Assembly (NCBI GenBank): GCA_020848545.1
Contig: JADLHZ010000022.1
Coordinates: forward strand, 1-64,000
DNA from: Deltaproteobacteria bacterium
GTDB taxonomy: Bacteria; Myxococcota; JADLHZ01
Reading direction: 5' to 3'
Length of the DNA stretch: 64,000 nt
Shown here: piece after piece, positions 2,422 through 31,184 of the stretch
How positions within the stretch are numbered: position 1 is the first letter of the stretch
How the letters are laid out: every line of letters begins with the position of its first letter
Made by a program: the position numbers and the translations under genes
The notes under the pieces: model-generated
Database searches by the model: none
What the model saw: only the letters and a program-made list of their open reading frames with translations
Told to the model about the DNA's origin: nothing

Positions 2422-2423
2422 CG

Positions 2424-8365: not shown

Positions 8366-8934
8366 TCGCGTTGCTGCTCATCGCTGCGCTCGCGGCGGAT
8401 CGCGACGCCTGCCTGCAACAGTTCGCGGATCGCGCTCCTCGGTCTGCGAAGACCTACTTCTCGCTTTTCGATCCACTGTTCGTGTCGGTCGGCGAGAAGC
8501 GTGGTCTCGATCCTGCGCTGCTCAAAGCCCACGCATGGTGCGAGACGCGCTTCGATCCCTGCGCGGTCTCGCCCGTCGGCGCGCGTGGCCTGATGCAGTT
8601 CATGCCGCGCACTTTCGATCTCGTCGCCAGCGCGGCCGAGGCGACGAATCCCTTCGATCCCATCGATTCGGTCGAGAGCGCCGGTGTCTACCTCTCGGCG
8701 CTCGTCAATTATTGGCAAGGCGACATCTACGCGGTCGCTGCGTCGTACAACGCCGGTCCCGGTGCCGTCGCACGAGCACGAGCGCGCGGTCGCCGCGTCC
8801 CTCGCATCCCCGAAACCGAACAATACGTCATCTGCGTCGTCGATGCGTTCGCCCGTTTCGGCGGACGATCGCAGGTCTCACCGCTCGAGAGCGTATTCGA
8901 CGCCGTCACGCACTGGTTCCGAGGTGCCCCGTGA
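8362..8934 (+). CDS. virB1: VirB1-like lytic transglycosylase
   Basis: A 190-residue SLT-family muramidase with a short hydrophobic N-terminus (MIALLLIAALAADRDAC), probably a signal peptide. The catalytic glutamate lies in AHAWCETRFDP. The family motifs GARGLMQFMP and SYNAGPGAV follow in order. It would open the peptidoglycan so that the T4SS channel can be assembled in the periplasm. The ATG overlaps the coupling-protein stop (ATGA), so translation is coupled. Size and place in the operon fit VirB1 of conjugation systems. Confidence 0.9.
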   Translation: MIALLLIAALAADRDACLQQFADRAPRSAKTYFSLFDPLFVSVGEKRGLDPALLKAHAWCETRFDPCAVSPVGARGLMQFMPRTFDLVASAAEATNPFDPIDSVESAGVYLSALVNYWQGDIYAVAASYNAGPGAVARARARGRRVPRIPETEQYVICVVDAFARFGGRSQVSPLESVFDAVTHWFRGAP

Positions 8935-9268: not shown

Positions 9269-9568
9269 ATGAAAGCTGTCGTACAAACTATCCGCTCCGC
9301 CGTCGTCGTGCTCGCGCTCGTCTTTGGCCCACGCCTCGCGATCGCTGCCGGCGGCGGCTCTGTTCTCCGGCCGTTCGAGTCGTTCGTCGACTTCATCTGC
9401 GGCCCCTTCGCCATGGTCCTCGTCCCGCTCGCGCTCGCCGGCGCGATCATCTCGCTGATGTTCGGCGGGGGTCAGTACATCGGACGACTGCTGATCGCTC
9501 TGTTCGGCGGCGTGGGCTTGTTCATCCTCGGGCAACTCCGTGACTGGGTTGCCGACATGGCGCGGTGA
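9269..9568 (+). CDS. virB2: VirB2/TrbC-like conjugative pilin
   Basis: A 99-residue protein with a signal sequence ending near ALVFGPRLAIAA and two hydrophobic helices, GPFAMVLVPLALAGAIISLMFGGG and LLIALFGGVGLFILG. This is the typical layout of the VirB2/TrbC major pilin, which is processed and assembled into the mating pilus. The helices meet at a short polar turn (QYIGR). GAGGA precedes the ATG. It lies directly before virB3 as in other VirB-type operons. Confidence 0.82.
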   Translation: MKAVVQTIRSAVVVLALVFGPRLAIAAGGGSVLRPFESFVDFICGPFAMVLVPLALAGAIISLMFGGGQYIGRLLIALFGGVGLFILGQLRDWVADMAR

Positions 9569-9571
9569 CCG

Positions 9572-9871
9572 ATGAACGCGCCTGTCTACCGCACCATCGA
9601 GCGGCCAACGCGACTCTTCGGGCTCGAGCTCTTCGACGCCGTCCTTTGGTGTTCGACCCTCGTGCTCTTCAAGTGGACGCTCGTGCTCGCGCTGTGCGTG
9701 TCGGCCGCGGTGTGGCTGGCGCTGTTTGCTCTTCGGTATCGCCGGCCACCGCGGTTCTTGCTGTCGTTCCTGCGTTTCCATGCGTTTCGCTGGCTCTGCC
9801 GAAATCGCTTCTCGGCCGCCGCTCGCGAACCGCACCGCGGTGCGTGGCTGCCTAAGAGCGTCCGATCGTGA
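9572..9871 (+). CDS. virB3: VirB3/TrbD-like inner-membrane protein
   Basis: A 99-residue protein starting PVYRTIERPTRLFGLELFDAV, which matches the VirB3/TrbD pattern of a short polar N-terminus with Rpt/LFG before the first helix. Two hydrophobic segments follow (VLWCSTLVLFKWTLVLALCVSA and VWLALFALRY), with a basic C-terminus. It sits 3 bp after virB2 and before virB4, the standard order. VirB3 proteins anchor and work with the VirB4 ATPase at the inner membrane. Confidence 0.8.
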   Translation: MNAPVYRTIERPTRLFGLELFDAVLWCSTLVLFKWTLVLALCVSAAVWLALFALRYRRPPRFLLSFLRFHAFRWLCRNRFSAAAREPHRGAWLPKSVRS

Positions 9872-9943
9872 ACGAGGCGGCCGGGGGAGGTGGCGCCGCC
9901 CCCGGCCATTCGCGCCGCACCGTCGGCGCACGGGAGAACAAAC

Positions 9944-12412
9944 ATGCCGACGAGAGCCCTGCCGCTCGCCCCTCGCGTCCCGATCGCGCAGATCACCGAT
10001 CGCGTGCTCAACGTCGATGGATCTCTCGCCATCGGCTTCGAGCTCACGCCCCTTCCGCACACGTCAACCGCGACCGCGGCGGTGGCGACGCTGTCTCTCG
10101 GAATCTCCGAGCTCATTCGCAACCTGCCGGACGGCTTTTGCATGCAACATGTCGTCGAGTGCGTCGACGCTGCACCCTCGACGGTCACGGAGTTTGCGTC
10201 CGATCGCCGGCCGCCCCTCGGTGCCCAAGGTGCCGCCGCGTTGCTGGCCGAGGACGCGGCAGACTTCGTCGCGTCGATGCCGTTCCGCACCGTCCGACAG
10301 TACTTGTTCATCTGTCACCCCTACCCGTTTCAGAACGATACGCTCGTTCGCTCCGGCGCATTGCCCTTGGCGTTCCCTCGCATGGCGATCACGCGCTTCG
10401 AACGGGCGACGAAGCAGCTCGAGCAAGTGGCGTCCGCCTGCGCCGATCACCTGCGAGCGCTCGGGATAGAGCTGACTCGCTCGGCCGCTGAAACGATCCT
10501 CGGTCTCACTTCGCGCCTCCTGAATCCCGGGCGGTCGGTCCCCGCTCCGTGTTCCGGCGCCGGACACGATCCATCGTTGTTCCTTGGCACGCGCGAGCTC
10601 GATTGGCGGCTCACGCTGCGCGAACAGCTCATCGCCACCGACTTCGAGCAACCGACGCCGCAGGTACTCGTCGCTGGCGACGTCGGCATTCGCACGCTGT
10701 CGCTGAAGACACTCCCCGATCAAACGACCCCCGGCATGCTCGCGGAGCTCTTCTTCGCGTTGCCGGCCCCGTACATCCTCAACACCGCGATCGAGAAGCT
10801 CCCCGCGGAGCGCACGCTTGCGGGCCTGAAGGTTCGCCGCTCCATGGCCCAAGGCGTCGCTTCGCTCGCCGCGCGCCGCAACATCGATGCCGAAGTGCAG
10901 CACGCCGAGCTCGAGGCGCTGATGGAGTCGCTGTCGGCATCGGCGATCTCGCTCTGCGCTCTCCAGGTCACGTGCGCCGTGTTCGGACGCACCGAAGAGG
11001 AGCTTTGGGAGCGCAGCGAGAATGCCACGCAGGCGTTCTCTCGCGCTGGCGGTCTCGGGACGCTGATCGAAGACTACAACCACCTCGACGTCTACATGTC
11101 GCAGCTTCCCGGCGCGTCGCATCGCTTTCGACGCAGCCGAACCGTCACTGACCTCAATGCGGCCCACATGCTCGTTCCGTTTGGGAGCTGGCGTGGACAC
11201 GCGTCGGCAACGCTGATGCTGCGCACGCGCGCGGGAGACGCCGTCGCGTTCGATCCCTTCGCCGACGAGCTGCCGGCGTACAACGGGCTCATCGTCGGCG
11301 CGACAGGCTCGGGTAAGTCCTTCTTCACGAACCTGTTGCTGGCGAACTCGCTCGCTGCTGGAGGCGGCGCCGTCGTCGTCGACATCGGCGGATCGTATCG
11401 CCGGCTGACGCAGCTCTTCGGCGGCACGTACCTCGACGTCGGTCAGCTCGACTCGATCGGCCTCAACCCGTTGCCGTCGCTCGACGCTCTCAACGCACTG
11501 CCTCCGGACTTACGTGACCAGAAGCTGCAGTTTCTCGCAGGCTTCCTCGAGCTCCTGCTCTCTGAAGACGGCACAATGGGAACGGCGGAGCGCGCGCTCA
11601 TCGCCAAATTGCTCAGCACCTTCTATTCGCCTGAACGAGGCAGCGATCCGACGCCGCCGACGCTCGATACTCTCCAATCCTTCCTGAAGGACGACAGCGC
11701 GCTCGAGCGCGACGGCGCCCAGCGGCTCGTCCGCCGCCTCGATCTATGGACTCGCGGCCCACGCGCACGCCTGTTTCAACGCCACATCGATCTCGATCTT
11801 CAGACCTCGATCATCTCGATCGACCTCAAGGCCATCGAAGCCGACCGCGAGCTGCAAGCGATCGCGCTCTACGTTCTCGGGTTCGTCGTCTGGTCGAAGC
11901 TCGCCGAGGCTTCGGTGTCGCGCCGCAACACTCTCGTCGTCTTCGACGAGTGCTGGGCGCTGCTCGCGAGCCCGCCGGCGCAGCGGTTGATCGAGAACCT
12001 CGCGCGCACGTCGCGAAAATACGGCGCCGGGCTCTGGTGCCTGTCGCAAGCGCTCTCCGATTTTTCACAAGCGTCGATCGGGCCGGCGCTGCTCACCAAC
12101 GCTTACAGTCGCATCCTGCTGCGCCATCCGCACGGTCACGAAGACGTCGCGGAGCAGCTCGGGCTCAACGAGCAGTCGCTCGATGCGTTTCGCTCGCTGA
12201 CATCCGTGCGCGGCAAGTACGCCGAGATCTTCCTGCAATCCGGCCCGCACGCCGAGCTGCTGCAAGTGGTGCCGTCGCCCATCGCGTACTGGATGGCGAC
12301 CACGAACGCGAAAGACCGATCAGTCGAGCACGCGACTCGCGAGAAGAATCCGAGCGCCTCACCCCTGCGCATCCTCCGCACTCTCGCGGAGCGCTTTCCC
12401 AACGGAGTTTGA
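9944..12412 (+). CDS. virB4: VirB4/TraC/TrbE-type conjugation ATPase
   Basis: An 822-residue protein with Walker A GATGSGKS at residues 452-459 and Walker B NTLVVFDECWALL about 210 residues later, followed by the family's TSRKYGAGLWCLSQALSDF arginine/glutamine region. The N-terminal half (to about residue 400) is the VirB4/TraC N-terminal domain. It is the motor for pilus biogenesis and substrate transfer at the inner membrane. The ATG at 9944 has GGGAGA just upstream and is preferred over an open frame from 9890. It is the only complete conventional assembly ATPase in the operon, because no VirB11 is seen. Confidence 0.92.
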   Translation: MPTRALPLAPRVPIAQITDRVLNVDGSLAIGFELTPLPHTSTATAAVATLSLGISELIRNLPDGFCMQHVVECVDAAPSTVTEFASDRRPPLGAQGAAALLAEDAADFVASMPFRTVRQYLFICHPYPFQNDTLVRSGALPLAFPRMAITRFERATKQLEQVASACADHLRALGIELTRSAAETILGLTSRLLNPGRSVPAPCSGAGHDPSLFLGTRELDWRLTLREQLIATDFEQPTPQVLVAGDVGIRTLSLKTLPDQTTPGMLAELFFALPAPYILNTAIEKLPAERTLAGLKVRRSMAQGVASLAARRNIDAEVQHAELEALMESLSASAISLCALQVTCAVFGRTEEELWERSENATQAFSRAGGLGTLIEDYNHLDVYMSQLPGASHRFRRSRTVTDLNAAHMLVPFGSWRGHASATLMLRTRAGDAVAFDPFADELPAYNGLIVGATGSGKSFFTNLLLANSLAAGGGAVVVDIGGSYRRLTQLFGGTYLDVGQLDSIGLNPLPSLDALNALPPDLRDQKLQFLAGFLELLLSEDGTMGTAERALIAKLLSTFYSPERGSDPTPPTLDTLQSFLKDDSALERDGAQRLVRRLDLWTRGPRARLFQRHIDLDLQTSIISIDLKAIEADRELQAIALYVLGFVVWSKLAEASVSRRNTLVVFDECWALLASPPAQRLIENLARTSRKYGAGLWCLSQALSDFSQASIGPALLTNAYSRILLRHPHGHEDVAEQLGLNEQSLDAFRSLTSVRGKYAEIFLQSGPHAELLQVVPSPIAYWMATTNAKDRSVEHATREKNPSASPLRILRTLAERFPNGV

Positions 12413-12414
12413 CG

Positions 12415-13215
12415 ATGTGGTTCAAGAGATTCGCCAAGGACCGAGTGCCGCAGAACATCACGCGAGATCTGCTCGACACGCTCATGTTCGAGGATCTGCT
12501 GCTCGTGGGCGGGCGCGGCAGCGGGCGCTCGCGCTTTCTCGCGCAGCTCTCCTCGCGGGCGCATTGCCTCGGACAACCCGTCGTCAGCGTCACGAGCAGC
12601 GTCGGACCCCTCAATGAGTACGGCGTCGAGTACCGCTACGGCGACGAGGTGAAGTGGCAGTGCGCGCCAGCGATCGTCCATCTGAACGTCGACGGCCGCA
12701 CCGGGCCGAAGGTGATGCAGTGGCTTGATCACGCGCTGCGCGGGCAGATGGAGCTCTTCGTGCGCTCGAGCTACATCTCGTCACGCATCGTGCTCGTCCT
12801 CGACGAGACGGCCGGGTACTTGTCGGCCGGGGTGTCGCAGTATCTCTCGTTGCTGCACCAGCAAAGCCGCATGGTCGTGTGGCTCGCGCAGAGCCAACCA
12901 CTCGACTTCGACGCCAGCCCGCTCATCAACCCGCTGCTCGAGCAACGCACGCGCGTCGCGTTTCCATGGACACGAGGCGGCGGTGCAACGCATCAGCGCC
13001 TTCTCCACCCGGTCACGGTGACGGCCGTGAGCAAGGCGAAGATCGAGCCGTACAAGTACTGCGACATCGTCGTCGAGCGGCACTGGCAGCCGGAGATGTT
13101 CCGGAACCCGTACAATTTCTGCGCGACGGCCGACATCCGCACGGCGCCGCTGATCGATCCGAAAGCGCTCACGCCGACCTCTGAAACGCCGCTCCCGGGC
13201 GGTGCCTCATGGTGA
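12415..13215 (+). CDS. P-loop NTPase-like protein with altered Walker A
   Basis: A 266-residue protein starting 2 bp after virB4. Residues about 30-47 read LLVGGRGSGRSRFLAQL, a P-loop in which the invariant Walker A lysine is arginine (GGRGSGRS). A Walker-B-like strand, SRIVLVLDETAGYL, lies near residue 125, and VVWLAQSQPLDFD resembles the sensor region of AAA/HerA-type ATPases. There is no signal peptide. It is far too unlike VirB11 to be called that. It could be a second, weakly active or inactive ATPase that helps VirB4 or the coupling protein. It overlaps the following gene (ATGGTGA). Confidence 0.7.
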   Translation: MWFKRFAKDRVPQNITRDLLDTLMFEDLLLVGGRGSGRSRFLAQLSSRAHCLGQPVVSVTSSVGPLNEYGVEYRYGDEVKWQCAPAIVHLNVDGRTGPKVMQWLDHALRGQMELFVRSSYISSRIVLVLDETAGYLSAGVSQYLSLLHQQSRMVVWLAQSQPLDFDASPLINPLLEQRTRVAFPWTRGGGATHQRLLHPVTVTAVSKAKIEPYKYCDIVVERHWQPEMFRNPYNFCATADIRTAPLIDPKALTPTSETPLPGGASW

Positions 13216-14033
13216 AGCGAGGCCTCGCGGTGTTGATCGTCTTGTGCGTGCCAGCCCGCGCGCACGCCGGCGCATCCATCCTCGGTTTCTCGATGGGCGA
13301 CGACACGATCACGCTCGGCGCGATCCTCACGCAAGCGATCGAGCAGGTCGCGGTCCTGAAAGACGTCGCGTCGTTCACGAAGGACATGGGCGAGAACATC
13401 GCCTTCGTGAAGGACGTCTACGCCACCGCAAACGACGTCATCAACGGCGATTGGGATTCGCTCTCGAGCGAGTTTCTTCACGAGGTCATCCAGTCCGATC
13501 CGAGCTTGCGCGAGATCTACGCGAACACCGAGGCGGTGATGAACAACCGCGTGCGTCGCAATCACAAGTTTCGTCGCTTGCTCGGCGCCGGCTTCAACCA
13601 GCTCGTCTTCGAATCGTTCGGCGCGTACCCCGAGGGCCCAAACGCCGACCGTTATGCCGTCAGCGACTACCAATCGATGACGCTCAACGCGCTCGCCGAG
13701 CAACAGATGGACGAGTGGAAGCGCAAGCAAGCGGCAAAACGGATTCAGAAGGCGTGGGAAGCCTGCGAGCAAGGGCTCGAGTCTTGCGGCAACGCCCAAG
13801 GCAAGATGGCTGCACAGGCCGCCGCGTCGATCGAGGACTTGAAGGCGATCGAGGCAGAGCGCGCGCGGCTGGAAGCGCTTCGCGCCGCGACCGAGACAGC
13901 CGAGCGCAAGGAACGCGACGCGGCGATCGAGCGCGACATCAAGGCGGTGGTCAAGGCCGCCGACGACCTCAAGCGCCAGGAATCGCCGCTCGTCTTCGAA
14001 GAAGAGGACTTTCACTCGGAGGACACCCCATGA
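13209..14033 (+). CDS. virB5: VirB5/TrbJ-like periplasmic T4SS protein
   Basis: A 274-residue protein with a clear signal peptide (VKRGLAVLIVLCVPARAHAG). The mature part is strongly helical, with the TrbJ/VirB5-like stretch LGAILTQAIEQVAVLKDVASFTK and long charged coiled-coil helices near residues 195-265, rich in Ala, Glu, Arg and Lys. VirB5/TrbJ proteins are minor pilus components exported to the periplasm. Position (after virB4 and before virB6), signal peptide and helicity support the call; sequence identity by eye is low. The ATG overlaps the previous stop and the stop overlaps the virB6 start. Confidence 0.72.
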   Translation: MVKRGLAVLIVLCVPARAHAGASILGFSMGDDTITLGAILTQAIEQVAVLKDVASFTKDMGENIAFVKDVYATANDVINGDWDSLSSEFLHEVIQSDPSLREIYANTEAVMNNRVRRNHKFRRLLGAGFNQLVFESFGAYPEGPNADRYAVSDYQSMTLNALAEQQMDEWKRKQAAKRIQKAWEACEQGLESCGNAQGKMAAQAAASIEDLKAIEAERARLEALRAATETAERKERDAAIERDIKAVVKAADDLKRQESPLVFEEEDFHSEDTP

Positions 14034-15049
14034 GCTATTACTCGTACTTTCAGCTCGCCCCGATCGCCGGAGTCGGTCTCGAGGTGGCCAGGCGCTCGCT
14101 GGGCTTGGCGTTCGGGCTACTCGGCTCATGCGCGGTGATCGCCTACGCCTTCGAGTACGCCGGCCTCGCGTTGCCGGGCCGCCAGGGCGAACGCAATACG
14201 CTCCGCGTGGTCGTCGCCACGTTCGGTCTGTGTATGCTTCTCTTGCTGTACGGCAAGATCATCGGCCTCGTCTCGAGCACGAGCGCATCGTTGGCGAAGA
14301 ACATCACCAAGAACTCCGACTTCGACGCTTACATCGGGACCCTCGGCCAAAAGATCACCGAGCAATTCTCGACCGACGGCAAGTCGGCCGGTGAGCTCAT
14401 CACGTCGTTCACGAGCGGCATCATCAGCACCGCCGTAGCCGCGCTCAGCATCGTCGCCGTGATGATCTTCCTTCAGCTCTTCTTTGGGCTTCAGACGATC
14501 CTATTTTCGATCTTGGTCGCGACCGGCCCCTTGGTCATCGCCTGCGCGATCCTGCCCGGCACCTCTGGGCTCATTGGGCGTTGGCTCACCGGTCTCATCG
14601 AGCTCGCCGCGTGGCCAGTGCTGGCTTCGATCGTGCTCGCGATGTGCATGAAGGCCGGCCTCGCGCAGTACTCGGTCGACCCCGGCAACTGGGTCAAAAT
14701 GTTGGCGGCGAACATCCTGCTCGTCGCGTCGCTCGCAGTCGTTCCGACGATCGCGTCGCGGCTCGTTGGCCAAGGCTTCGGCGCGGTCGGCCCGATCATG
14801 AGCGTCATCGCCATGAAGGGTGTGTCGATGGTCGGAGGACTTCGGCAGTCCATCTCGAACAGCGTCCTCGCCAACGTCGGCTCAGTCCGAACCGTCGGCA
14901 AAGCTGCCGCAGCGGTCGGGAGAGCCTTCGGCAAGGGCGGTGGTCATGTGGCCGACGCTGCCGTCGCGCGGCGCTCGCCCAAGAACCACATCGGCAACGA
15001 CCAGATGGCGAAGAACGCCGCGCTCAAACATCCCGTGAAGGGCGAATAG
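14030..15049 (+). CDS. virB6: VirB6/TrbL-like polytopic channel protein
   Basis: A 339-residue inner-membrane protein with about six hydrophobic segments, including LAFGLLGSCAVIAYAFEYAGLAL, VVVATFGLCMLLLLYGKIIGLV, a long pair around IISTAVAALSIVAVMIFLQLFFG, and ILLVASLAVVPTIASRLVG. The C-terminal tail is polar and basic. VirB6/TrbL proteins form part of the DNA path across the inner membrane. The ATG at 14030 is preceded by GGAGG, and ATGA overlaps the virB5 stop, so translation is coupled. Confidence 0.85.
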   Translation: MSYYSYFQLAPIAGVGLEVARRSLGLAFGLLGSCAVIAYAFEYAGLALPGRQGERNTLRVVVATFGLCMLLLLYGKIIGLVSSTSASLAKNITKNSDFDAYIGTLGQKITEQFSTDGKSAGELITSFTSGIISTAVAALSIVAVMIFLQLFFGLQTILFSILVATGPLVIACAILPGTSGLIGRWLTGLIELAAWPVLASIVLAMCMKAGLAQYSVDPGNWVKMLAANILLVASLAVVPTIASRLVGQGFGAVGPIMSVIAMKGVSMVGGLRQSISNSVLANVGSVRTVGKAAAAVGRAFGKGGGHVADAAVARRSPKNHIGNDQMAKNAALKHPVKGE

Positions 15050-15058
15050 GAGCACGTC

Positions 15059-15769
15059 ATGGCGAGCAAGGCCTTTTCTCGACTCCACAAGCTGCCGCGG
15101 TCGACCAGCGCCGGCAGGACATTCATCGCGACGGTCGGCGGTCAGCAGCCTGAGATCTGGTCGCGCGCATTTGCGATCGCTCGCGGACTCGGCTTCGCGC
15201 TGTTCGCGTCGCTCACGCTCAACGTCGTGCTCGTTGGCTTGTGCATCGCGCTCGCGTTCCGGCCGGCCGACGTCATCTTCGTCGACAAGCTCGGCGTCGC
15301 TACGTTTCTCCCGCTCGTGGCTCGCGCCGACGACGACCCACGCGAGATCGAAGCAGAGGCGTTCGCGAAGCAATGGGTCCGCGACTTCATGTCGCTCGAC
15401 GCGATCACCGCTCGTGAGGATCTCGCCCGCGCGCTCAGCGTCTCCGACCGCGAGATCCAAAGCAAGTTGAAGGCACAGCTGATCGACTCGGGCGTCATCG
15501 ACAAGATCCGCAACGCCTTCGTGCACTCGTCGGTCCGCTTCGAGACCACGAAGGTCACCGCCGTCGCCGCCGATCGCTTTCAGATCACGGTCACCGGAGA
15601 GCGCATGCTGACGGCGATGGGCGTCGAGCACAAAGCGATTGCCGAGCCCTTCAAGCTCGAGCTCGTACTGTCGCGCACCATGCGCACGCGCCAAACGCCG
15701 AACGGGCTCCTCGTGCGCTACGTCTCGGGTTCGTTCGGATCGAACATGCCCGTGGGGGGTGGCCAGTGA
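15059..15769 (+). CDS. virB8: VirB8/TrbF-like inner-membrane assembly protein
   Basis: A 236-residue bitopic protein. A short cytoplasmic N-terminus is followed by one membrane helix (LGFALFASLTLNVVLVGLCIALAF) and a periplasmic domain of about 170 residues. The alternating helix and strand order (EAFAKQWVRDFMSLDAIT, then VTAVAADRFQITVTGER) suits the NTF2-like fold of VirB8/TrbF. These proteins nucleate the channel and contact VirB6, VirB9 and VirB10. AGGAG lies just before the ATG. The end overlaps the next gene through GTGA. Confidence 0.83.
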   Translation: MASKAFSRLHKLPRSTSAGRTFIATVGGQQPEIWSRAFAIARGLGFALFASLTLNVVLVGLCIALAFRPADVIFVDKLGVATFLPLVARADDDPREIEAEAFAKQWVRDFMSLDAITAREDLARALSVSDREIQSKLKAQLIDSGVIDKIRNAFVHSSVRFETTKVTAVAADRFQITVTGERMLTAMGVEHKAIAEPFKLELVLSRTMRTRQTPNGLLVRYVSGSFGSNMPVGGGQ

Positions 15770-16617
15770 ACGCATTGGTGGTCGTCCTCTTGCTCGCCGC
15801 GTCCGCCAAGGAGCGTGATCCCGTCCGCAATTACACGGTGACGGAGGCGACCAAGACTCGTCCGATCGAGGTGCACATTGCGCAGAACTTCATCACGGGT
15901 CTGCGCTTCAATCACCAGGTCGTCGTGGGCGAAGTGCTCTGCGGCAACACGGCCGTCGTCCGCGTCGTACCCACACGCGAGAATACGCAGCTCAACTTCA
16001 CGGCGTTGCAGCAGACCCCGAAGGACTTCGTCACCAACTGCAACGTCCCGTTCACGAACGGGCTCAACGTGACGCTGTCGGTCGCAGTCACCAAGCAAGC
16101 AGACTCGTTCATCGACGTCGTCGTCCAGCTCGCGCCAGGCCCGAGCTCGTTGCCCAAGCAAGCGCAGCGGCTCGACGAAGAGGTCGTCGCAGAACGCGTC
16201 ACCGAGGCCGTCAACGCGTGCAAAGCGGAAGGCAGCGAAGCGCTCGTCCGCCAAGCCGCCGAAGCGATCGTCACGAAGCGGATCCATGAGCGCGCCGTCA
16301 CTGACAACGTCGTCTTGGCCGTCCTCGACCACGTGAAGATTGGCTCGCAAGGGCTCATTCGCTTCTCCATCGAGAACCGTTCGCGCACGCAATGGCCGGC
16401 GGGCGTCGTGAAGGTGTTCTTCTACGTGCCCGGCAAGGAACCTCGCTTGCTGGCATCGGTCGCCGCGTACCGCGCGCCTATCGTCGGCATGAACGAAGAA
16501 GTCTCGGCGGCGGTCTCGTTCGACATGTTCGATCTGCCGGAGAGCGCAAAGTTCGTGCTGCAGGCCTTCGAGAGCAACGGCGGCCGCCATCCGCGCGTCG
16601 AAGGTTTTCGTCTCTAA
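15766..16617 (+). CDS. virB9: VirB9/TrbG/TraK-like outer-membrane core protein
   Basis: A 283-residue secreted protein with a GTG start and a signal peptide (NALVVVLLLAASAKE). The N-terminal domain (residues 20-125) is beta-rich, with TRPIEVHIAQNFITGLRFNH and the strand-rich TAVVRVVPTRENTQLNF. It resembles the N-terminal domain of VirB9/TraK and of myxobacterial VirB9-like proteins. A helical linker and a second beta domain (IGSQGLIRFSIENRSRTQWPAGVVKVFFYV) follow. Its place between virB8 and the VirB10-like gene fits an outer-membrane core subunit. No VirB7 lipoprotein is visible nearby. Confidence 0.72.
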   Translation: MNALVVVLLLAASAKERDPVRNYTVTEATKTRPIEVHIAQNFITGLRFNHQVVVGEVLCGNTAVVRVVPTRENTQLNFTALQQTPKDFVTNCNVPFTNGLNVTLSVAVTKQADSFIDVVVQLAPGPSSLPKQAQRLDEEVVAERVTEAVNACKAEGSEALVRQAAEAIVTKRIHERAVTDNVVLAVLDHVKIGSQGLIRFSIENRSRTQWPAGVVKVFFYVPGKEPRLLASVAAYRAPIVGMNEEVSAAVSFDMFDLPESAKFVLQAFESNGGRHPRVEGFRL

Positions 16618-16633: not shown

Positions 16634-18772
16634 ATGCGCGCATTCGAACCGGGCGAATCGATCAAGGAGACCTATCGCATCGTCGGCGGTCTCGATGCCG
16701 GCGGTATGGGCCAGGTCTATCTCGCGAATCACGCGGCGCTCGGCCATCAGGTGTGCGTCAAGACGCTGAACATCAAGGCCGACTTCTCCGAAGCCTCGCT
16801 GCCGCAGTACCGAAAGCGCTTCGAGCGCGAAGCCCGCGCCCTCCTCCGGCTCAAGCACCCTTCTGTCGTGACGTTCTATGACTTCGGAATTCAGGACGAC
16901 ACGCCGTTCTTGGTGATGGAGTACTTCAGAAACGGCAGGCCCGCGCTCGCGTGGGGCAACAGCATGAAGCCGTCCGTGAAGCAGTGGCTCGCGGTGTTCC
17001 GGCAGCTTTTCGATTCATTGCACCATGCTCATCTTCGCGGGGTTCTGCATCGCGACATCAAGAGCGGAAACTTTTTGGTTCGCGGCGGCGCCGACACGGC
17101 CGAAGCGTGCCTGATCGACTTCGGGATCGCCTTCGACTCGCACAACAGCACGCTCACCCAAGCAAACGCGATCCTCGGCACGACCGGCAACATCGATCCG
17201 GCAAAGCTCGCGAATCCCGGCCTACCGTTCACGCCGCAGAGCGACCTCTACGGTGCGGGGGCGCTGCTCTATCACGCAGTCTGCGGACGCGCGCCGATCG
17301 TCTTCCCCAAAGACGCTTCGCCGATGGACCGCTTTCAGCTCGCGTTGCAGAATGCGGTCACGCCTCCTCGCGCGATCGATGCGACGATCTCCGAAGATCT
17401 CGAGCACTTTCTCCTGGCGCTGCTCGCGACCGAACCCGAGAAGCGGCCGCCATCGGGTGCGGCATGCGTCGCAGTGATCGACGCGCTCCTCGTCGACGCG
17501 CCAGTCTCCCTCGGGTCATTGCGAGCCATCTTCCCGCCCGTACAGCTCGAGGAGCGTGATGCACCCGAAGACGATGTTCCGTTGCTCGAAGCGGAGCTCG
17601 TCGAGGCGCCGCCGTCGAAAGCCACGAAGAACGAGCGCGCCGCGATCGCGCCCGTCGGCAGCGAGAGCAAAGCGGAAGATCGGGTTTCGCTCGCCCTTTC
17701 GGCCGCCGAAGTCGTTCATGTCCCGGTCCCGAAGGCTGTCGAGAGCAAGCCGAGGTCGTTTGTCGCAGCCGCGTTCTCGTTCGTTGGTGAGCGTCCGCGC
17801 ACCGGCAACTATCGGCAGACCGTTTTCGCGGTCGTCGGTCTCCTCGTCGTGCTCGGCGGCGCGGCGATCGTCGTCGCTGCACAGCGAGCGCAACACAAAG
17901 AGAAGCCGACTTTGCCGCCGCTCGTCACCGCGGCCGAGCTCGAGCACTCTCGCTCCCCGGACAAACCCGCGATCGACCAGATCATCGCCACGCGTGCACC
18001 TGATCCGACGATCACCGATAGCCGCCTCGACAACTTTCACCGAGACATCAAGGCGCGCTACCCGGTGAGCGCGCCAGGTGCTCCGTTGCCGGCGCCTGCA
18101 TCGCAACCGGTTGCGAGCACACTGCGCAAGAGCGTGAAGGAAACGTCTGCGCCCACGACGCCGCCCGCTCCGGAGCCAGTTTCGCTTGGAATCGTCCCTT
18201 CGTCACCGCCGCAGCCGACCGGCAAGCCGGACGCGAAATCCGAGACGCCGGCGATACCACACGGAACCAAGGCGACGGTGTACTTGCTCGACGTCCTGGA
18301 CACGTCGAGCGCCGAGCCGGTGCGCGCCGAGCTGCGCTCGAGTCTGAGAATCGGCAGCCAAGTGATACTTCCGGTGGGCACCGTGCTCCTCGGTCGCGCC
18401 GCGCTCAAGAACACGCGCGCCCAAGCCTCGTTCGATCGCGCGCTGCGAGAAGACGGATCAGAGCTACCGATTCGCGCGGTGGCGATCATGCCGGACGGAC
18501 GCGAGGGAATCCTCGGCGGGCAATACGAATATGGCGATGATGCTTCGTCCGGAGCGGCAGGTGCTGTCGTCGCCGACGTTGTTGGCTCGGCAGCGCTCGA
18601 TCTCGCCTCCGCCGCCATCCCGGGCACCGACACTTTCAGCCGAAGCGCGCGGAAGGCGCTCTCCAACGAGGCGACGAAGAGCCGGCACATCAAAGACGAG
18701 CCCCCGCGCAAGCGCGACCGAATGACCTTGCAACAGGGCACGAAGCTCGTCGTCCAATTCCGCGCCCGCTAA
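16634..18772 (+). CDS. Hanks Ser/Thr kinase fused to a VirB10/TrbI-like T4SS protein
   Basis: A 712-residue fusion. Residues 14-285 form a Hanks kinase that looks active: Gly-rich loop LDAGGMGQV (20-28), Lys43, a helix-C Glu in RFEREARALL, HRDIKSGN (His139), DFG (162-164) and SDLYGAG. A single membrane helix (TVFAVVGLLVVLGGAAIVV, about 396-417) follows an acidic linker. A Pro/Ala-rich periplasmic stretch leads to a C-terminal domain (544-712), with GTKATVYLLDVL, IGSQVILPVGTVLLG and AIMPDGREGILGGQYEYG, which fits the VirB10/TrbI beta-barrel pattern. VirB10 normally has only a short cytoplasmic tail. The ATG has GGAG 6 bp upstream. No frameshift or stop separates the two halves. It is the last T4SS gene before a new promoter. 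Confidence 0.85.
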   Translation: MRAFEPGESIKETYRIVGGLDAGGMGQVYLANHAALGHQVCVKTLNIKADFSEASLPQYRKRFEREARALLRLKHPSVVTFYDFGIQDDTPFLVMEYFRNGRPALAWGNSMKPSVKQWLAVFRQLFDSLHHAHLRGVLHRDIKSGNFLVRGGADTAEACLIDFGIAFDSHNSTLTQANAILGTTGNIDPAKLANPGLPFTPQSDLYGAGALLYHAVCGRAPIVFPKDASPMDRFQLALQNAVTPPRAIDATISEDLEHFLLALLATEPEKRPPSGAACVAVIDALLVDAPVSLGSLRAIFPPVQLEERDAPEDDVPLLEAELVEAPPSKATKNERAAIAPVGSESKAEDRVSLALSAAEVVHVPVPKAVESKPRSFVAAAFSFVGERPRTGNYRQTVFAVVGLLVVLGGAAIVVAAQRAQHKEKPTLPPLVTAAELEHSRSPDKPAIDQIIATRAPDPTITDSRLDNFHRDIKARYPVSAPGAPLPAPASQPVASTLRKSVKETSAPTTPPAPEPVSLGIVPSSPPQPTGKPDAKSETPAIPHGTKATVYLLDVLDTSSAEPVRAELRSSLRIGSQVILPVGTVLLGRAALKNTRAQASFDRALREDGSELPIRAVAIMPDGREGILGGQYEYGDDASSGAAGAVVADVVGSAALDLASAAIPGTDTFSRSARKALSNEATKSRHIKDEPPRKRDRMTLQQGTKLVVQFRAR

Positions 18773-18841: not shown

Positions 18842-19462
18842 ATGATTCGTCGTGTTCTCGTACTCGTCGTCGTTCTCTATGCGTCCTCCGCCGACGCGCA
18901 CAAGTACGAGCTCGGCATCAATATAGAGCCGCGCTTCGGCCTGCTCGGAGCGGTGGCACCACAAGCGCAGCAGACTACCCTGGCGCCGAGCCTCGGTGGC
19001 GTCCTCGGCCTCGAATTCTATCCGCTGAACATGCTCTCGATCGTGTTCAACGTCGGCTACATGCACGGCCTCGCCGACTCGCTCATCGGCGAAGCGACGT
19101 TCTCGAATCGCACAGGGCTGTATTACTTTTCGCAGTCGACCGGCTTGGCGACTGCCGGACTGCGCCTCGAAACGCTGCCGAGCTGGATGCCCCTCGTCCT
19201 GAGCGTCTCAGCCCAGGCCGGAGCAGCGTTGCTGGTTCACACGAACCGCGATCTGCGAAACAAGGAGCAGCTCTCCTACAAGCTCGCCCTCGCGACCGAC
19301 TTTCGCGTGCTCCCCATGCTCACCGTCGACATCGGGATCGGCGGACGCATCACCAATCAGATCCGGCTCAGCGCGCACCCAGCGCTCTACGTGTTCTTCG
19401 CCGAACGCCCGGTCCCCGGCGCCGGCATCCACCTCGCCCTCACCTTCTTCTTTTATCCCTGA
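18842..19462 (+). CDS. Predicted small outer-membrane beta-barrel protein
   Basis: A 206-residue protein with a signal peptide (MIRRVLVLVVVLYASSADAH). The mature part is a series of alternating amphipathic strands with Gly/Leu/Phe turns (GGVLGLEFYPLNMLSIVFNVGYMHG, GLRLETLPSWMPLVLSVSAQAGAALLVH) and ends in aromatic residues, LTFFFYP. This is typical of a small outer-membrane barrel. I do not recognise a named family. It is the first gene after the palindromic promoter, no Shine-Dalgarno is seen, and it is followed 13 bp later by two giant lipoproteins. A surface role in mating or attachment is inferred. Confidence 0.68.
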   Translation: MIRRVLVLVVVLYASSADAHKYELGINIEPRFGLLGAVAPQAQQTTLAPSLGGVLGLEFYPLNMLSIVFNVGYMHGLADSLIGEATFSNRTGLYYFSQSTGLATAGLRLETLPSWMPLVLSVSAQAGAALLVHTNRDLRNKEQLSYKLALATDFRVLPMLTVDIGIGGRITNQIRLSAHPALYVFFAERPVPGAGIHLALTFFFYP

Positions 19463-19475: not shown

Positions 19476-22340
19476 ATGGTCACGCGCGCACTCGCAATCT
19501 GCATCCTCACTGCCGCTTGCCGACCGGATGTGAAGCCGACGAAGAGCGCGCCGCAGCTCTCGGGCACGGCCGTGCTCGTCGCGCCCATCGTCGGAGCACA
19601 GGTTCGTGTCGTCCGCCTCGACGTCAACGCCGGCGAAGTGGTCGGGACGACGACAACCGATGAAGAAGGAAACTTCAGCGTCGAGCTGCGTGAAACCGAA
19701 GGCACGGTCCTCGTGGAGCTGCTCGGCGCGGGCCAGGGATCGACCGCGGATCCGCTGACCGACAAGCAACTGTCGCTGTCGCTGACCGACAGGTTTGCCA
19801 CCATCGTGCCCGACTTGATCCTCGGCGAGTCTCGCGAGGGCATCGTCGTCTCTCCTTGGTCGACGCTGATCGCGGCGCGTGTGCAGTGGGACGTCGCGAC
19901 GAATCCGCGGCCCTACAAAGACGCGTTGACGGAGACAACGCAGCTCTTCACGCATCACTTCGGCGAGCGCGCGTTCCTCGACTCTCTCCCGTTGTCGCCG
20001 ACCGCCGGTCCGACCAACGGCCTCTCGACTAGCGCCTTGCATGGTTTCGCGACGACCTCGCTGTCCGCCGTGGGCGTCGACTTGTCGCGGCGACTGCAGC
20101 TCACGCCGTCGGGGCTCATCAATACGATCTCGCTCACGCAGTGGCTCGCCGACGATCTGCGCGCCGACGGCGCCTTCAATGGCGCGGGCACGAAGGGCCA
20201 GATCAACATCCTCGACGCCCAGTACGTCGACATCGAGCTGACACGCGCGCTGCTCGGTGCGGCGATGGGCTCGTTCGCCACCAGCATCGAGAACAAGAGC
20301 GGCGTCGGCCTCGGCGATCTGACGGCGATGATCACCGCCATGAGCACCGACACATCGGCCCTCTACGGGAGCGCAGCCGCGGTCGCCACGAGCATGGGTC
20401 CCGGCGCCGTCATCACCATCACGAGCCCGACCGCCAGCGCGGAGTACCGCGACGAGGTCGTCATCGTGGGCAAGGCGGAGAGCCCGATCGGTGTTGCCGG
20501 TGTCGAGCTCGCTCTCGATGGGGTGCCGATCGGCAACGGCGGCGAGCGCGCGGCCACCACGAAGATCGTGTGGACGATCAAGACTCCGATCGAGGACGGC
20601 TTTCACACCCTACGCGTCGACGCCAAGGACGCGAGCGGCGTGCCGAGCTCGTTGACGGTGACCTTCAGCTCCGACAAGACCGCGCCGTCTCTCCTCTTCG
20701 CCTCCTGCAAGCTACCGGATGATCGGACGCGCGGCGCCACGTCGGACTTTTCGACCGGCGCGGTCGCGTGGGGAACGGTTCAGTTCGACGCCACGTGCAT
20801 CGGCCCTTCCCTGCAGCCGAAACGAGACGAGGACGCTCTCGTTTTTCATCAGTACGCGGAGCTGACGAAGGCGCCCGAGACGAGCGCCGCGATCGTGCTC
20901 GTCCCGGAAGATCGCGGGGTCGTCGCGACCAAGCCTCACGAGCTCACTGTTCATGCCGGGATCTACCGCAACGGGAAGCTCCTCGGCACGGAGGCGGAGA
21001 TCCCGTCGAAGAGCATCAGCAGCAGCGGCCGCGACATTGCCATCTCGCCGGCGCTCTTCGGTGCGGCGCTCCTCGACGTGTCTGTCTCGGATGTCCTCGA
21101 GCTGCGCGCTCGCGTCGTCGATCGCCAAGGGAACGAGGGGCAAGCCGTCTACAAGTTCCGCCTCGACCTCATCCCAACCCCGATCGCGGTCGAAGAGCGC
21201 ACCGCCGAGATTCCTGGCGCGCAACGCGTCGACACGTTCTCTTACGCGAACAGCAACGCGCACCAGCTCTTCGACGCGTCGATCAACCGCAGGTTCGGCA
21301 TCTATGCGACGGCCAAGTACGCGGTGAAAAACGTCGCCGACCGGCCGACGCTCCTTGGCATCGCGTACGCCCCAGCAACAGTGAAGGCGAGCATCCGCGA
21401 GTGGCATGGGCTCGTCGCCGGCGAAAACACCACTTGGGGCATGCCGAACGGCCTCGGCTACTCGACCGCCACGACGTGCGCATACACCCAAGCGCAGCTG
21501 ACGAATCCGACGCCCGACGAGATCTTCACCTACTGCCGAAGCGAAGCCTCGGACACCGTGCCCACCCAAGGAAGCCTGCCGGCGAACCCGCTCGTCCTCG
21601 TTCGACGCAATGGCCAGGAGACCTGCATCCGAGCGGACGACTATCCGACGTTCGAGCCGATCGAGCAGCTCCCGGAGCGCCAGACGCCGTGGCGGGTGAT
21701 CGTCGTGGACGCGGCGAGCGGCGTGCCCATCGTGAGGAGCGCTGCCGGCGAGTACTCGCTCGGCGCCGGAAAAGAGGCGCACGTCTTCATCGGCTTCGAT
21801 GTGCCATCGTTCGATCAGCGCAGCATTCCGGTGTGCACGCCGGCGTACGTGGGCAACCCGCCGGTCTATTCATCTGGGCAGAATCCGCCCCACGCGCCGA
21901 TCACATCTCTCGTTGGCGTCCTTCCGCACCGCACCGTGTACAACGGCGCGTTCGCCTGGGACGGACAAGCATACATCGACTGCAGCGGCATGACCTGCGT
22001 CGGCAGCGACTGTCGCAGCACGGACAATCAAGTGCTGCTGCGCGCCCAGGGCACGGTCTTCTACGAAGACACCTTCATCGGCGCCGGCGGCTGCTACTGG
22101 TATCGGCGCGCGATTCGGAGAGCGGCGAACATCAGCCTGTCGAGAATGCGCGCGACGAGCGACGTGGCGGTCACCGGCAGCTTCGCGATCACGACGAGCG
22201 CCCGCCTTCCGAAGAACCCGACGCTCCACGATCAGACCTTCGATCTGCCGCGTGAGTCGTTCGCCATCGATCACCGCTCGCGCAACCCGAACCAACCGCC
22301 AGATCACGTGATTCGTTACACGAAGGGGCTGCCGCCGTGA
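19476..22340 (+). CDS. Large surface lipoprotein with Ig-like domain (copy 1 of 2)
   Basis: A 954-residue protein. The signal sequence ends in the lipobox LTAAC (Cys15), so it should be lipid-anchored. Residues 27-95 (SGTAVLVAPIVGAQVRVVRLD, then VGTTTTDEEGNFSVEL) form a carboxypeptidase-regulatory-like beta sandwich. A helical domain follows (about 110-290). Residues about 312-400 read VITITSPTAS...GVELALDGVPIGN...FHTLRVDAKDASG, an Ig/cadherin-like repeat. The C-terminal 450 residues are beta-rich with several Cys (for example CSGMTCVGSDCR). It is paralogous along its whole length to the next gene. GGAG precedes the ATG. It is probably displayed on the surface for cell contact or mating-pair stabilisation, by inference. 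Confidence 0.75.
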   Translation: MVTRALAICILTAACRPDVKPTKSAPQLSGTAVLVAPIVGAQVRVVRLDVNAGEVVGTTTTDEEGNFSVELRETEGTVLVELLGAGQGSTADPLTDKQLSLSLTDRFATIVPDLILGESREGIVVSPWSTLIAARVQWDVATNPRPYKDALTETTQLFTHHFGERAFLDSLPLSPTAGPTNGLSTSALHGFATTSLSAVGVDLSRRLQLTPSGLINTISLTQWLADDLRADGAFNGAGTKGQINILDAQYVDIELTRALLGAAMGSFATSIENKSGVGLGDLTAMITAMSTDTSALYGSAAAVATSMGPGAVITITSPTASAEYRDEVVIVGKAESPIGVAGVELALDGVPIGNGGERAATTKIVWTIKTPIEDGFHTLRVDAKDASGVPSSLTVTFSSDKTAPSLLFASCKLPDDRTRGATSDFSTGAVAWGTVQFDATCIGPSLQPKRDEDALVFHQYAELTKAPETSAAIVLVPEDRGVVATKPHELTVHAGIYRNGKLLGTEAEIPSKSISSSGRDIAISPALFGAALLDVSVSDVLELRARVVDRQGNEGQAVYKFRLDLIPTPIAVEERTAEIPGAQRVDTFSYANSNAHQLFDASINRRFGIYATAKYAVKNVADRPTLLGIAYAPATVKASIREWHGLVAGENTTWGMPNGLGYSTATTCAYTQAQLTNPTPDEIFTYCRSEASDTVPTQGSLPANPLVLVRRNGQETCIRADDYPTFEPIEQLPERQTPWRVIVVDAASGVPIVRSAAGEYSLGAGKEAHVFIGFDVPSFDQRSIPVCTPAYVGNPPVYSSGQNPPHAPITSLVGVLPHRTVYNGAFAWDGQAYIDCSGMTCVGSDCRSTDNQVLLRAQGTVFYEDTFIGAGGCYWYRRAIRRAANISLSRMRATSDVAVTGSFAITTSARLPKNPTLHDQTFDLPRESFAIDHRSRNPNQPPDHVIRYTKGLPP

Positions 22341-22393
22341 GCACGCCGGTCCGCGCACTTCATCCAATCGTCTTCCGCAACAGAGGAGCCTCC

Positions 22394-25108
22394 ATGTCCA
22401 CGAAGTTCTCTACGCTCGTCCTGTTCTCGCTGCTCGCCTGCAAACCGGCCGTCAACGGCGCCTCGATCGTGGGCGTCGAGGGTGTATCCGGACAACCGGA
22501 CGCGCCGACTCCTGCGCCCGCAGTCGTCTCGAATCTGACCGTGCTGTCCGGCACTGCGTTCCTGATCGCGCCGGTGAAGGGTGCGCACGTGAAAGCAACG
22601 CGCCTGACGAATGCAGCCGAAGTAGTCGGCGAGGCCACGACCGGCGGCGACGGCGAGTGGACGATCGAGTTTTCGGCCGATGGCGACGTGCTCATCGAGG
22701 TGCTCGGTGATCGCGGCGGCGGATGCATCGAGCCCGTCACTGGCGTCACTCCGATCGCGCTCTCCCAAGACGATCGCCTGCTCACCGTCGCGGCACACGT
22801 CGGCCTCGGTGAGAAGCGCGGCGGCATCACGGTCAATCCGTGGACGACGTTGATCGGCGTCCGAACGCTTGCCGCTGTGCGCGCAGGGACCGAGTTGGCG
22901 ACGGCATGGCAGCACAACACCGAGCTGTTCTCCGCGCACTTCGGCTCGATCGCTCCTTGGGACTCGAGCGCCGTCGACCTCGCGCGTGAACCCGCGGCGG
23001 GATTATCGTCGAGCGCGATCTACTCCTTCACCGTGTTCGCGCTGTCACAGCACGCGCTGGAGCTCGGTCGACGCGCCGGCGTGACCGACGTTTCGGTGAT
23101 CAACTCGTTCACCACCCTGCGCCTCTTGATGCGCGACTTGGACGACCTCGTGTTCGACGGCGCCGAGAAGGGATCGCCACTTCCCGCGTTGGCCGGCAAT
23201 GTCCGCCTCGACGCCGAGACCACCCGCGCGAGCTTGGCGCGTTCGCTCGAGGATTTCCTGGCGTCCGAGAACAACAAGTCCGGCTTCGGCGCTCGCGATC
23301 TCGCGAAAGTGCTCGCCGCGATCCGCGCCGACAAGAGCGAGCTCTACCCGACGGGCGAGCCGGACATCGACCGCGATCCTACCGAGGAGCTCGGCTCGCC
23401 GCCCGCGATCACCATCGTCGCGCCGACGGAGATGCAGATCATCGGCCAGGGGACGAAGCTGACGGCGGAGATCGTCGACGTCGACGGCATCAGCGAAGCA
23501 TCCGTTCTCATCGACGGCATGCAGACGGGCATCGTCTTCGATTCCTCGAACCCAACCACTTGGCGTACTGACGTCGCCATGAGCGTCGACGACGGCGCGC
23601 ACGTGCTCGAGGTGAACGCGACGGACGCAAAGGGGAACACGTCGACGAAGACGCTGAATTTCACGTACGATCACTCCCCGCCCGCCGTCGCGTACCTCGC
23701 CTGTCACGCGCCGAACGATCTCTTGCGAACCGTGACCACGAGCGCCGGCGGGGCGACGTTCGATCCGATCACGCAGCTCGAAGCCTGCGTCGAAGCATCG
23801 CTCGACAGCGGCGACCAGCAGTTCCACACCTTCGCCGATCTGCTCGCGAGCGAAGGCACCGACACGCCGGCGGTGAACATCTCAGTGACGGATTCGTCCG
23901 AGCTCGCGTCGGTCACGTGCCAGTTGCTCATCAACGGCGCTGCCTCGGGTTCCTCTCTGCCCTGCCCCACCGGAGACGCGCCAGCCACGCACTCTTTGGC
24001 GGTGAACGCCGCGGTGTTCGGCGACTCGCTCTTGGGCTTGAACGCGGCGGACCAAGTCGCCCTCCAGGTGACGGCGATCGACGCGCTGGGCAACACAACG
24101 GTGCGGACGTTCGCGTTTCGGCTGCACGTGCTGGCGACGCCGCTGCATGTGACGACGTTGCCGCTGACGCCGCAGTATGCGCTCGTCAGCTACAGCTTCG
24201 CCGCGGACAACATCGACAAGCTCTTCGTCGGCACCAACTTTCCCGACTACCTGGTGCAGCTCAACGCGTACCAGGTGACGAACGTGTCGGCGCGACCGGT
24301 GAAGCTCTCGCTCGTCGAGGGTTTCGAGAACGACGGCGCTTGGTGGACTCGGCGAACGCTGATGTCGCCATTCCAGCTCTACACGGGCTTCACAGTGACC
24401 GACGGCGCCGGCGTGTGCAGCAACGGCCAGGCACTCAAGTTCCTGCGCTGGGGCTCGACGCCGTATCATCAGTGCGTGACGCCGGCGTCGCTCACCCGCC
24501 TCGAGTCGATGCAAACCGGCTACATCCCGGGCTTCAACTTCGACATCCAGCGCCAAGTGTTCACGGCGACGGGGACGAAGCTCGTGCCGGACGACAACAA
24601 CGACGTCGAGCTCGCGCCCGGTCAGTCGTACCGGGTGCAGATCGGCACGCGGTATCCATTCTTCACCGCGGGATCGACGTCGCCGCGCTGCGAGGCCGTC
24701 TACTATCCGGAGTGGATCACGCACGCGGTGCGCTCAGCGCCGCAGAACGTCGGCGGCTTCTACAAGAAGCACCTGTTCATCACGAACTATCAGGCCGGCG
24801 GGACGTATTCGTTCTACGGCTACCTCTCGTGCGACAGCAACATGAGGTACTCGTGCCCGAGCAGCGGCCTCTGCGGATTCGACGCGTTCGTCAGCAACGG
24901 CGCCGTCTACCCGGTGAGTTACGCCGTCATCGAGCGTGACCTGCGCTTCCAGACGGCGGCGACGTGGATGCCGCGCATTCGGCTCGCGACATCGACGACG
25001 TCGATCCCGGCGCGCGCCGATCGCACCGGCTTCGCGATCCTTCAGGACTATCGCACCGAGAACACGCGCCCGCCGGACGGGCTCGGGTTTTCGCTCGCGG
25101 GTTGGTAG
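22394..25108 (+). CDS. Large surface lipoprotein with Ig-like domain (copy 2 of 2)
   Basis: A 904-residue lipoprotein. The ATG at 22394 has GAGGAG 5 bp upstream and is chosen over a longer frame overlapping the previous gene. The lipobox is FSLLAC (Cys16). Domain order repeats that of its neighbour: SGTAFLIAPVKGAHVKATRL, VGEATTGGDGEWTIEF, NPWTTLIGVRT, ENKS/ENNKSGFGARDLAKVLAAI, then an Ig-like unit (DGISEASVLIDGMQTG...GAHVLEVNATDAKGN) and a Cys-containing beta-rich C-terminus. The two copies clearly arose by tandem duplication and have since diverged, most strongly in the last 400 residues. This could give different binding specificity. It is the last gene of the operon. Confidence 0.75.
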   Translation: MSTKFSTLVLFSLLACKPAVNGASIVGVEGVSGQPDAPTPAPAVVSNLTVLSGTAFLIAPVKGAHVKATRLTNAAEVVGEATTGGDGEWTIEFSADGDVLIEVLGDRGGGCIEPVTGVTPIALSQDDRLLTVAAHVGLGEKRGGITVNPWTTLIGVRTLAAVRAGTELATAWQHNTELFSAHFGSIAPWDSSAVDLAREPAAGLSSSAIYSFTVFALSQHALELGRRAGVTDVSVINSFTTLRLLMRDLDDLVFDGAEKGSPLPALAGNVRLDAETTRASLARSLEDFLASENNKSGFGARDLAKVLAAIRADKSELYPTGEPDIDRDPTEELGSPPAITIVAPTEMQIIGQGTKLTAEIVDVDGISEASVLIDGMQTGIVFDSSNPTTWRTDVAMSVDDGAHVLEVNATDAKGNTSTKTLNFTYDHSPPAVAYLACHAPNDLLRTVTTSAGGATFDPITQLEACVEASLDSGDQQFHTFADLLASEGTDTPAVNISVTDSSELASVTCQLLINGAASGSSLPCPTGDAPATHSLAVNAAVFGDSLLGLNAADQVALQVTAIDALGNTTVRTFAFRLHVLATPLHVTTLPLTPQYALVSYSFAADNIDKLFVGTNFPDYLVQLNAYQVTNVSARPVKLSLVEGFENDGAWWTRRTLMSPFQLYTGFTVTDGAGVCSNGQALKFLRWGSTPYHQCVTPASLTRLESMQTGYIPGFNFDIQRQVFTATGTKLVPDDNNDVELAPGQSYRVQIGTRYPFFTAGSTSPRCEAVYYPEWITHAVRSAPQNVGGFYKKHLFITNYQAGGTYSFYGYLSCDSNMRYSCPSSGLCGFDAFVSNGAVYPVSYAVIERDLRFQTAATWMPRIRLATSTTSIPARADRTGFAILQDYRTENTRPPDGLGFSLAGW

Positions 25109-26735: not shown

Positions 26736-26781
26736 CTTCGTCCCTGTTCTCCGCTAGCACCAAGCAGCTATTGAGGGCCCG

Positions 26782-28089: not shown

Positions 28090-28120
28090 GTCCGTAGTCT
28101 ATTCTCCATCTTACCTACGC

Positions 28121-29239: not shown

Positions 29240-29343
29240 CTGCCGGCGTCGTCCTTGCGGAGCCCCCGCACGGGCTTCGGATCCGACAAATCGTAGCGGG
29301 GGCCGAACCCGAGCACCGCGACAACCGTGACAAACGCGAGCAT
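29236..29343 (-). CDS. Very small hydrophobic leader peptide coupled to the partner gene
   Basis: A 35-codon frame from the ATG at 29343, with AAGG 5 bp before it. It begins with a hydrophobic run (MLAFVTVVAVLGFGP) and ends in a charged tail, DLSDPKPVRGLRKDDAGR. Its TGA overlaps the GTG start of the next gene (GTGA), as in translationally coupled genes. It could be a small membrane peptide or only a coupling leader. Evidence is limited to position, ribosome site and overlap. Confidence 0.4.
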   Translation of the reverse strand: MLAFVTVVAVLGFGPRYDLSDPKPVRGLRKDDAGR

Positions 29344-29464
29344 GGGCACCTTGCAAACCACAGGCGAGCGAGGGCGGCAAGACCGCCCGCGCCCGCTGAA
29401 GACGCTCGCACAACGCTCATCCGCAGGCTCCCGCGCCCCGGGGCCGCACGCATCACTTTCCAAT

Positions 29465-31107: not shown

Positions 31108-31184
<77 letters not shown>

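Follow-up and report, generated by a model that had tools for sequence, protein, structure and literature searches.

A type IV secretion system (T4SS) whose VirB10 protein is fused in frame to a Hanks-type Ser/Thr kinase is encoded in the window, by which we mean the whole stretch of 64,000 nucleotides that was analyzed. The 712-residue protein (Table 1) is a variant VirB10 architecture, in which the cytoplasmic tail contains a kinase domain. Such kinase-VirB10 T4SSs constitute a lineage-wide variant in Myxococcota that is new to the open-licence literature searched.

Domain organization of the kinase-VirB10 protein

The kinase domain of the window protein contains a complete catalytic set, comprising K43, E66, the HRD motif (residues 139–141), N146 and D162 of the DFG motif (162–164). 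Hydropathy analysis identified one hydrophobic segment (best 19-residue window at position 397), located where the inner-membrane helix of VirB10 would be expected, and proline makes up approximately 20% of residues 418–540 (counted by eye). The initial annotation of this DNA had described a kinase with Lys43, HRD and DFG at these residues, a single membrane helix at about 396–417 and a Pro-rich stretch thereafter, all of which are borne out by the Pfam match, the hydropathy and the sequence. With a cytoplasmic Hanks kinase at the N-terminus, a single membrane helix and an extracytoplasmic C-terminal domain, the fusion shares the layout of the PASTA/PknB-type receptor kinases, and PknB_PASTA_kin is its best NCBIfam match (2e-48; 165.8 bits versus a cut-off of 450), ending before the outer part of the protein. 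PASTA repeats were not matched in the window fusion; where these receptor kinases carry such repeats, it has a VirB10 domain of the secretion core, which by homology would reach the outer membrane.

The initial annotation had also assigned the C-terminal residues to VirB10/TrbI and proposed an HMM search for confirmation. A TrbI (PF03743) match is indeed present at residues 541–674 (E = 7.8e-5 with the full-length sequence and 5e-6 when the domain is searched by itself); its score of 23–27 bits (26.9 noted) nevertheless falls under the Pfam cut-off of 35 bits. The cut-off is exceeded by the fusion on contig C126 of the same genome and by the Anaeromyxobacter copies. We built a family profile for the VirB10 domain from 18 relatives, 15 of which match TrbI individually (best 4.8e-10), and this profile matches VirB10 of X. 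citri (6gyb) across the whole domain (E 1.4e-4), as well as ComB10. An AlphaFold model of the domain has a pLDDT >90 in the barrel; in the region examined for the two-helix outer-membrane antenna, model residues 112–146 have a pLDDT <50 and one helix is predicted (143–156). In a Foldseek search of this model against the PDB, ranks 1–25 (to E = 2e-3) are all VirB10 homologues, among them TrwE (1.1e-7), X. citri VirB10 (2.6e-7), CagY, ComB10, TraF, DotG and F-type proteins, with noise thereafter. The sequence of the window copy by itself is marginal for the assignment; because the predicted structure retrieves VirB10 homologues at all of these ranks, we regard the identification as VirB10 as secure when model and sequence are taken together, and the structural match that the initial annotation had called for was thus obtained. 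The fusion resembles VirB10, TrwE, TraF and ComB10 in its single inner-membrane helix, Pro-rich periplasmic part, TrbI-type barrel and gene position after virB8 and virB9, but its cytoplasmic part, instead of being a short tail, runs to approximately 395 residues and includes a complete kinase, and its sequence has diverged to marginal Pfam scores.

Table 1. Features of the kinase-VirB10 protein and of the T4SS operon in the window.
Feature	Position	Strand	Basis or remarks
virD4/TraG coupling ATPase	6584..8365	+	PF12696 5.6e-12
virB1 lytic transglycosylase	8362..8934	+	PF01464 7.5e-23
virB2 pilin equivalent	9269..9568	+	PF04956 3e-6
virB3 equivalent	9572..9871	+	weak PF05101
virB4 equivalent (TraC/TraG P-loop type)	9890..12412	+	PF19044 1.4e-27, PF11130 2.6e-16
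Small P-loop-like protein (GGRGSGRS)	12415..13215	+	no Pfam match; protein at the same place in contig C1 matches AAA_16
Probable virB5 equivalent, secreted	13209..14033	+	position; kept in all four operons of the genome
virB6 equivalent	14030..15049	+	PF04610 7.4e-7
virB8 equivalent	15059..15769	+	weak PF04335 (E 0.028); 46–64% identity to genes at the virB8 place of sister operons
virB9 equivalent (DUF2381), partner of kinase-VirB10	15766..16617	+	PF09544 2.8e-10; Foldseek
Kinase-VirB10 fusion protein	16634..18772	+	712 aa; ATG start, GGAG 6 nt upstream
Hanks-type Ser/Thr kinase domain, residues 20–273	16691..17452	+	PF00069 4.5e-32
Transmembrane helix (single), residues ~396–417	17819..17884	+	hydropathy; position shared with relatives
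Pro-rich periplasmic linker, residues 418–540	17885..18253	+	sequence
VirB10/TrbI C-terminal domain, residues 541–712	18254..18769	+	Pfam, family profile, AlphaFold, Foldseek
Short secreted protein, possible outer-membrane barrel	18842..19462	+	no Pfam match; kept in all four operons of the genome
Large Ig-domain lipoprotein; candidate adhesin or contact component at the cell surface	19476..22340	+	PF17957 1.2e-7
Second large Ig-domain lipoprotein	22337..25108	+	PF19077 1.5e-6

The T4SS operon and the identity of DUF2381

The fusion gene occupies the virB10 place after virB8 and virB9, as the initial annotation had it; the gene order is right, with DUF2381 as the likely virB9 and a virB8 that is matched weakly in Pfam. 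The genes for the short secreted protein and the two Ig-domain lipoproteins recur downstream of most other fusions. VirB11 was not seen in the window operon, a feature shared with the F-type T4SS (TraB/TraK/TraV, TraC), as is the match of the window VirB4 to TraC_F_IV and the finding that F-type TraK is the best structural match of the window DUF2381. In contrast, TraB of F has no kinase, and DUF2381 and the Ig-domain lipoproteins are absent from the F genes.

DUF2381 (PF09544), a family without assigned function, adjoins most of the fusions. A model of the window protein (pTM 0.44, moderate confidence) retrieves exclusively members of the VirB9 family at ranks 1–6 in Foldseek (F TraK at 8e-11, DotH, TrwF and X. 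citri VirB9), and on the strength of these modeled matches DUF2381 is most likely the VirB9 of the window T4SS. The family was found in 76 of 189 Myxococcota genomes, with numerous copies in each of the Myxococcaceae; a search of open-licence papers for DUF2381 or TIGR02268 returned nothing relevant. On contig C160 of the host genome, an additional gene for a secreted protein of 118 residues (L029 12267–12623) lies ahead of the DUF2381 gene, and possibly represents a duplicated N-terminal domain of VirB9 or a stand-in for VirB7.

The gap separating virB9 from kinase-virB10 is a hotspot, with contents that differ among the operons of the host genome. It is empty in the window, holds an AbiE-like two-gene pair (by sequence resemblance) on C126 (L004 9540–11167), and XRE-like regulators on C1 (L005 9560–9916) and C160 (L029 13550–13888). 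Contigs C126 and C160 begin with the same coding sequence (L004 12–150, L029 12–140), a repeat where the assembly broke.

The window region is probably an integrated element with its right edge at the tRNA-Met gene (31108–31184), since a tyrosine integrase gene (29899–31047) abuts it. No repeat of the tRNA-Met end that would mark the left end (attL) was found in the window, and relaxases of PF03432 or PF08751 were not found in the host genome, where VirD4 is present. An integrase-like gene on C160 adjoins tRNA-Pro. Upstream of the window T4SS lies an AbiEi/AbiEii toxin-antitoxin pair (1534–3302), and a minus-strand segment of lower GC content (25161–29413) encodes a DUF6119 protein, an effector of the nucleoside-phosphorylase (PNP) type that is similar to defence effectors, and a third cargo protein, with a shared motif "TIQQG". 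The presence of AbiE and the PNP-type effector on the island, and the matches of the kinase part of the fusion to the PD-T4-6 and mad6 models, would be in line with a defence or abortive-infection kinase that is triggered by the secretion core, for example upon sensing incoming conjugation or phage. We consider this highly improbable, as the PD-T4-6 and mad6 matches span the generic kinase fold only and the fusion is located inside a transfer operon with virB2–B9 and virD4.

Recurrence and conservation in Myxococcota

The host genome (8 Mb) contains four diverged fusions on four contigs, each within its own full T4SS operon of the same type, and the sister fusions are 35–44% identical overall to the window copy. 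Searches with PF03743 and the family profile found these four fusions and no ordinary VirB10, neither in the operon nor in the genome; the initial annotation had considered that another gene of the operon might prove to be a clear VirB10.

A search of the phylum covered 195 Myxococcota genomes, including the host, in one scan, and the counts for the profile and for DUF2381 refer to 189 genomes. The family profile matches 33 of the 189; the weaker of these matches are short and fall in proteins of Myxococcaceae. Besides the family of the host, six or more families of Myxococcota have comparable fusions, and a further one is encoded on a 64-kb plasmid of Myxococcus (NZ_CP123279.1), where it has a T4SS context and is annotated only as "protein kinase". 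Fusions in families f1, f8, f9, f13 and f25 are flanked by genes for VirB4, VirB6, VirB8 or DUF2381; those of f17 and f30 are on short contigs with little of the neighborhood visible. A VirB10 without a kinase is encoded beside virB4, virB6, virB8 and DUF2381 in family f7 (L098 6119–7561, genome G015), and another in f31 (L034 1319–3112, G193), which possibly reflect the ancestral state or a loss. Beyond Myxococcota, a non-exhaustive search with one short peptide pattern gave a single match, in Bryobacterales (L056), without a kinase and without T4SS genes nearby.

The pairing of kinase and VirB10 beside T4SS genes, for which the initial annotation had suggested a database search, therefore recurs in independent genomes and on the Myxococcus plasmid. 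We found no earlier description of it in open-licence papers, in agreement with the statement in that annotation that no such fusion was known, and a 2025 review of T4SS nomenclature contains none of the words "kinase", "phosphorylat" and "myxo" (PMC12857230). The suggestion of a novel system holds as far as the literature searched is concerned, but by placing it in this window the annotation understated its distribution.

Of 29 diverged proteins, 28 have the catalytic Lys, and every one has the Glu, HRD, Asn and the Asp and Gly of DFG. A comparison of Anaeromyxobacter soli with A. oryzisoli gave dN/dS values of 0.053 (kinase), 0.072 (VirB10 domain) and 0.27 (linker between kinase and helix); other pairs are alike in kind, with synonymous sites near saturation. 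These values indicate that the kinase is under strong purifying selection, with its catalytic residues kept. That the kinase fold serves mainly as a structural docking platform for VirB4 and VirD4, with catalysis incidental, has a basis in known machines, in which the ATPases dock on the VirB10 N-terminus (PMC12624023). A scaffold would be expected to lose its catalytic residues, however, and these are essentially invariant across highly diverged sequences; moreover, two distant kinase types have been fused in the same manner. We therefore consider a mere platform improbable.

Artefact, in the form of a chance fusion, an assembly error or a pseudogene, receives virtually no credence from us. 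The window domain on its own does score below the Pfam cut-off for TrbI, but the arrangement recurs in many genomes and on complete replicons, is under strong purifying selection and has a clear VirB10 fold. This explanation was rejected on finding the same in-frame fusion in three other operons of the host, in independent genomes and on a complete plasmid.

A tree was inferred from 59 kinase domains, including 30 non-fusion kinases that all derive from the genome of the window. The kinases of 24 fusions and DUF2381 pairs form one supported group (96/86) apart from the 30 other kinases, whereas those of L031, L095, L100 and L101 (families f9, f13 and f17) group with a stand-alone kinase encoded at position 32616 of the window, and that of L040 (f30) is separate from both groups. 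Constraining all fusions together was not rejected (p-AU 0.357), and the tree is thus compatible with either one or several fusion events.

Several Myxococcaceae loci (L088, L089, L091, L102 and L104) have a DUF2381 gene adjoining a kinase gene, with no virB4 within approximately 5 kb. The kinases of these pairs branch inside the main group of fusion kinases. At the C-terminus they retain a degenerate VirB10 domain and core motif, which is recognized by the VirB10 profile (hhalign 97.6%, E 3.1e-12) and may have another role. Several of them contain an internal lipobox-like stretch, such as VLTGCLPAAQVRP in L104. In four genomes (G041, G030, G120 and G036; L154–L157), a kinase-VirB10 gene lies 11–16 kb from the ordinary VirB10 gene of a canonical T4SS, and in G036 and G041 it is directly adjoined by DUF2381. 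Apparently, the DUF2381/kinase pair is able to exist without the remaining T4SS machine, and a signalling unit therefore fits it better than a valve.

A possible receptor kinase on the secretion core

VirB10 bridges both membranes in known T4SSs. Its N-terminus has been placed on VirB4/VirD4, and in the R388 system touches VirB4, VirB3 and possibly VirD4 (PMC12624023). How a T4SS detects a recipient, stops building its pilus and begins transfer is still an open question; VirB10 is the suspected relay and, according to reviews, the candidate that would set off this switch (PMC12624023, PMC12857230).

We favor the reading that the fusion is an envelope-spanning receptor kinase, controlled from the outside in by the state of the VirB9-VirB10 core, and put its chances of being correct at about even. 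In this myxobacterial T4SS, the short cytoplasmic tail of VirB10 is replaced by a Ser/Thr kinase that is predicted to be catalytically competent. If the stoichiometry of known T4SSs applies, a dozen or more copies of VirB10 would ring the machine and hold the kinases side by side at its inner-membrane base, near VirB4 and VirD4. Passage of the pilus or contact with a partner cell may shift the state of the outer-membrane barrel formed by VirB9 (DUF2381) and VirB10; this change would pass along VirB10 through the single helix, presumably in the inward direction, upon which neighboring kinases could trans-phosphorylate. The kinases would then phosphorylate candidate substrates in the donor, such as VirB4, VirD4 and regulators, and thereby commit the cell to transfer. 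In support of this receptor reading, both domains are real, the fusion recurs, the catalytic residues are constrained, the context is that of a T4SS and DUF2381 is most likely a VirB9. Against it, the kinase is dispensable for some such machines, given the kinase-less VirB10 proteins in the T4SSs of families f7 and f31.

The main rival, along the lines of what the initial annotation had put forward, is signalling in the opposite direction, with a cytoplasmic cue activating the kinase and phosphorylated VirB10, VirB4 or VirD4 opening or closing the channel or licensing its assembly. The kinase is attached to the very end of VirB10 that touches VirB4, VirB3 and VirD4 in R388 (PMC12624023), and the XRE-type regulators or AbiE-like pair adjoining the fusion in sister operons show that the operon is regulated. 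On the other hand, a cytoplasmic sensor domain is missing from the fusion, whose sequence from the kinase to the helix is of low complexity and fast-evolving (dN/dS as given above), and pairs without a nearby virB4 have no evident channel to gate. We rate such gating as rather unlikely. Outside-in control is at least as likely as gating, because there are DUF2381/kinase pairs without virB4 and pairs near T4SSs that have a VirB10 of their own.

More tentatively, and with somewhat less than an even chance of being right, we propose a new class of receptor kinases in which an outer-membrane-reaching VirB9 (DUF2381)-VirB10 core is the sensor, and which would have arisen in the T4SSs of Myxococcota and then, once independent of the machine, expanded in Myxococcaceae in the form of DUF2381/kinase pairs. 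If true, part of the large myxobacterial kinome would be a domesticated secretion-system core. DUF2381 gains a likely identity as VirB9, which hints at the source of the many myxobacterial DUF2381/kinase pairs. The fusion places an enzymatic readout on the suspected VirB10 relay, such that the state of the core complex could be read directly from kinase activity or from phosphosites, and mutation of one Lys would separate signalling from structure. The presence of a kinase on VirB10 suggests that the T4SSs of myxobacteria and their relatives sense or control transfer via phosphorylation.
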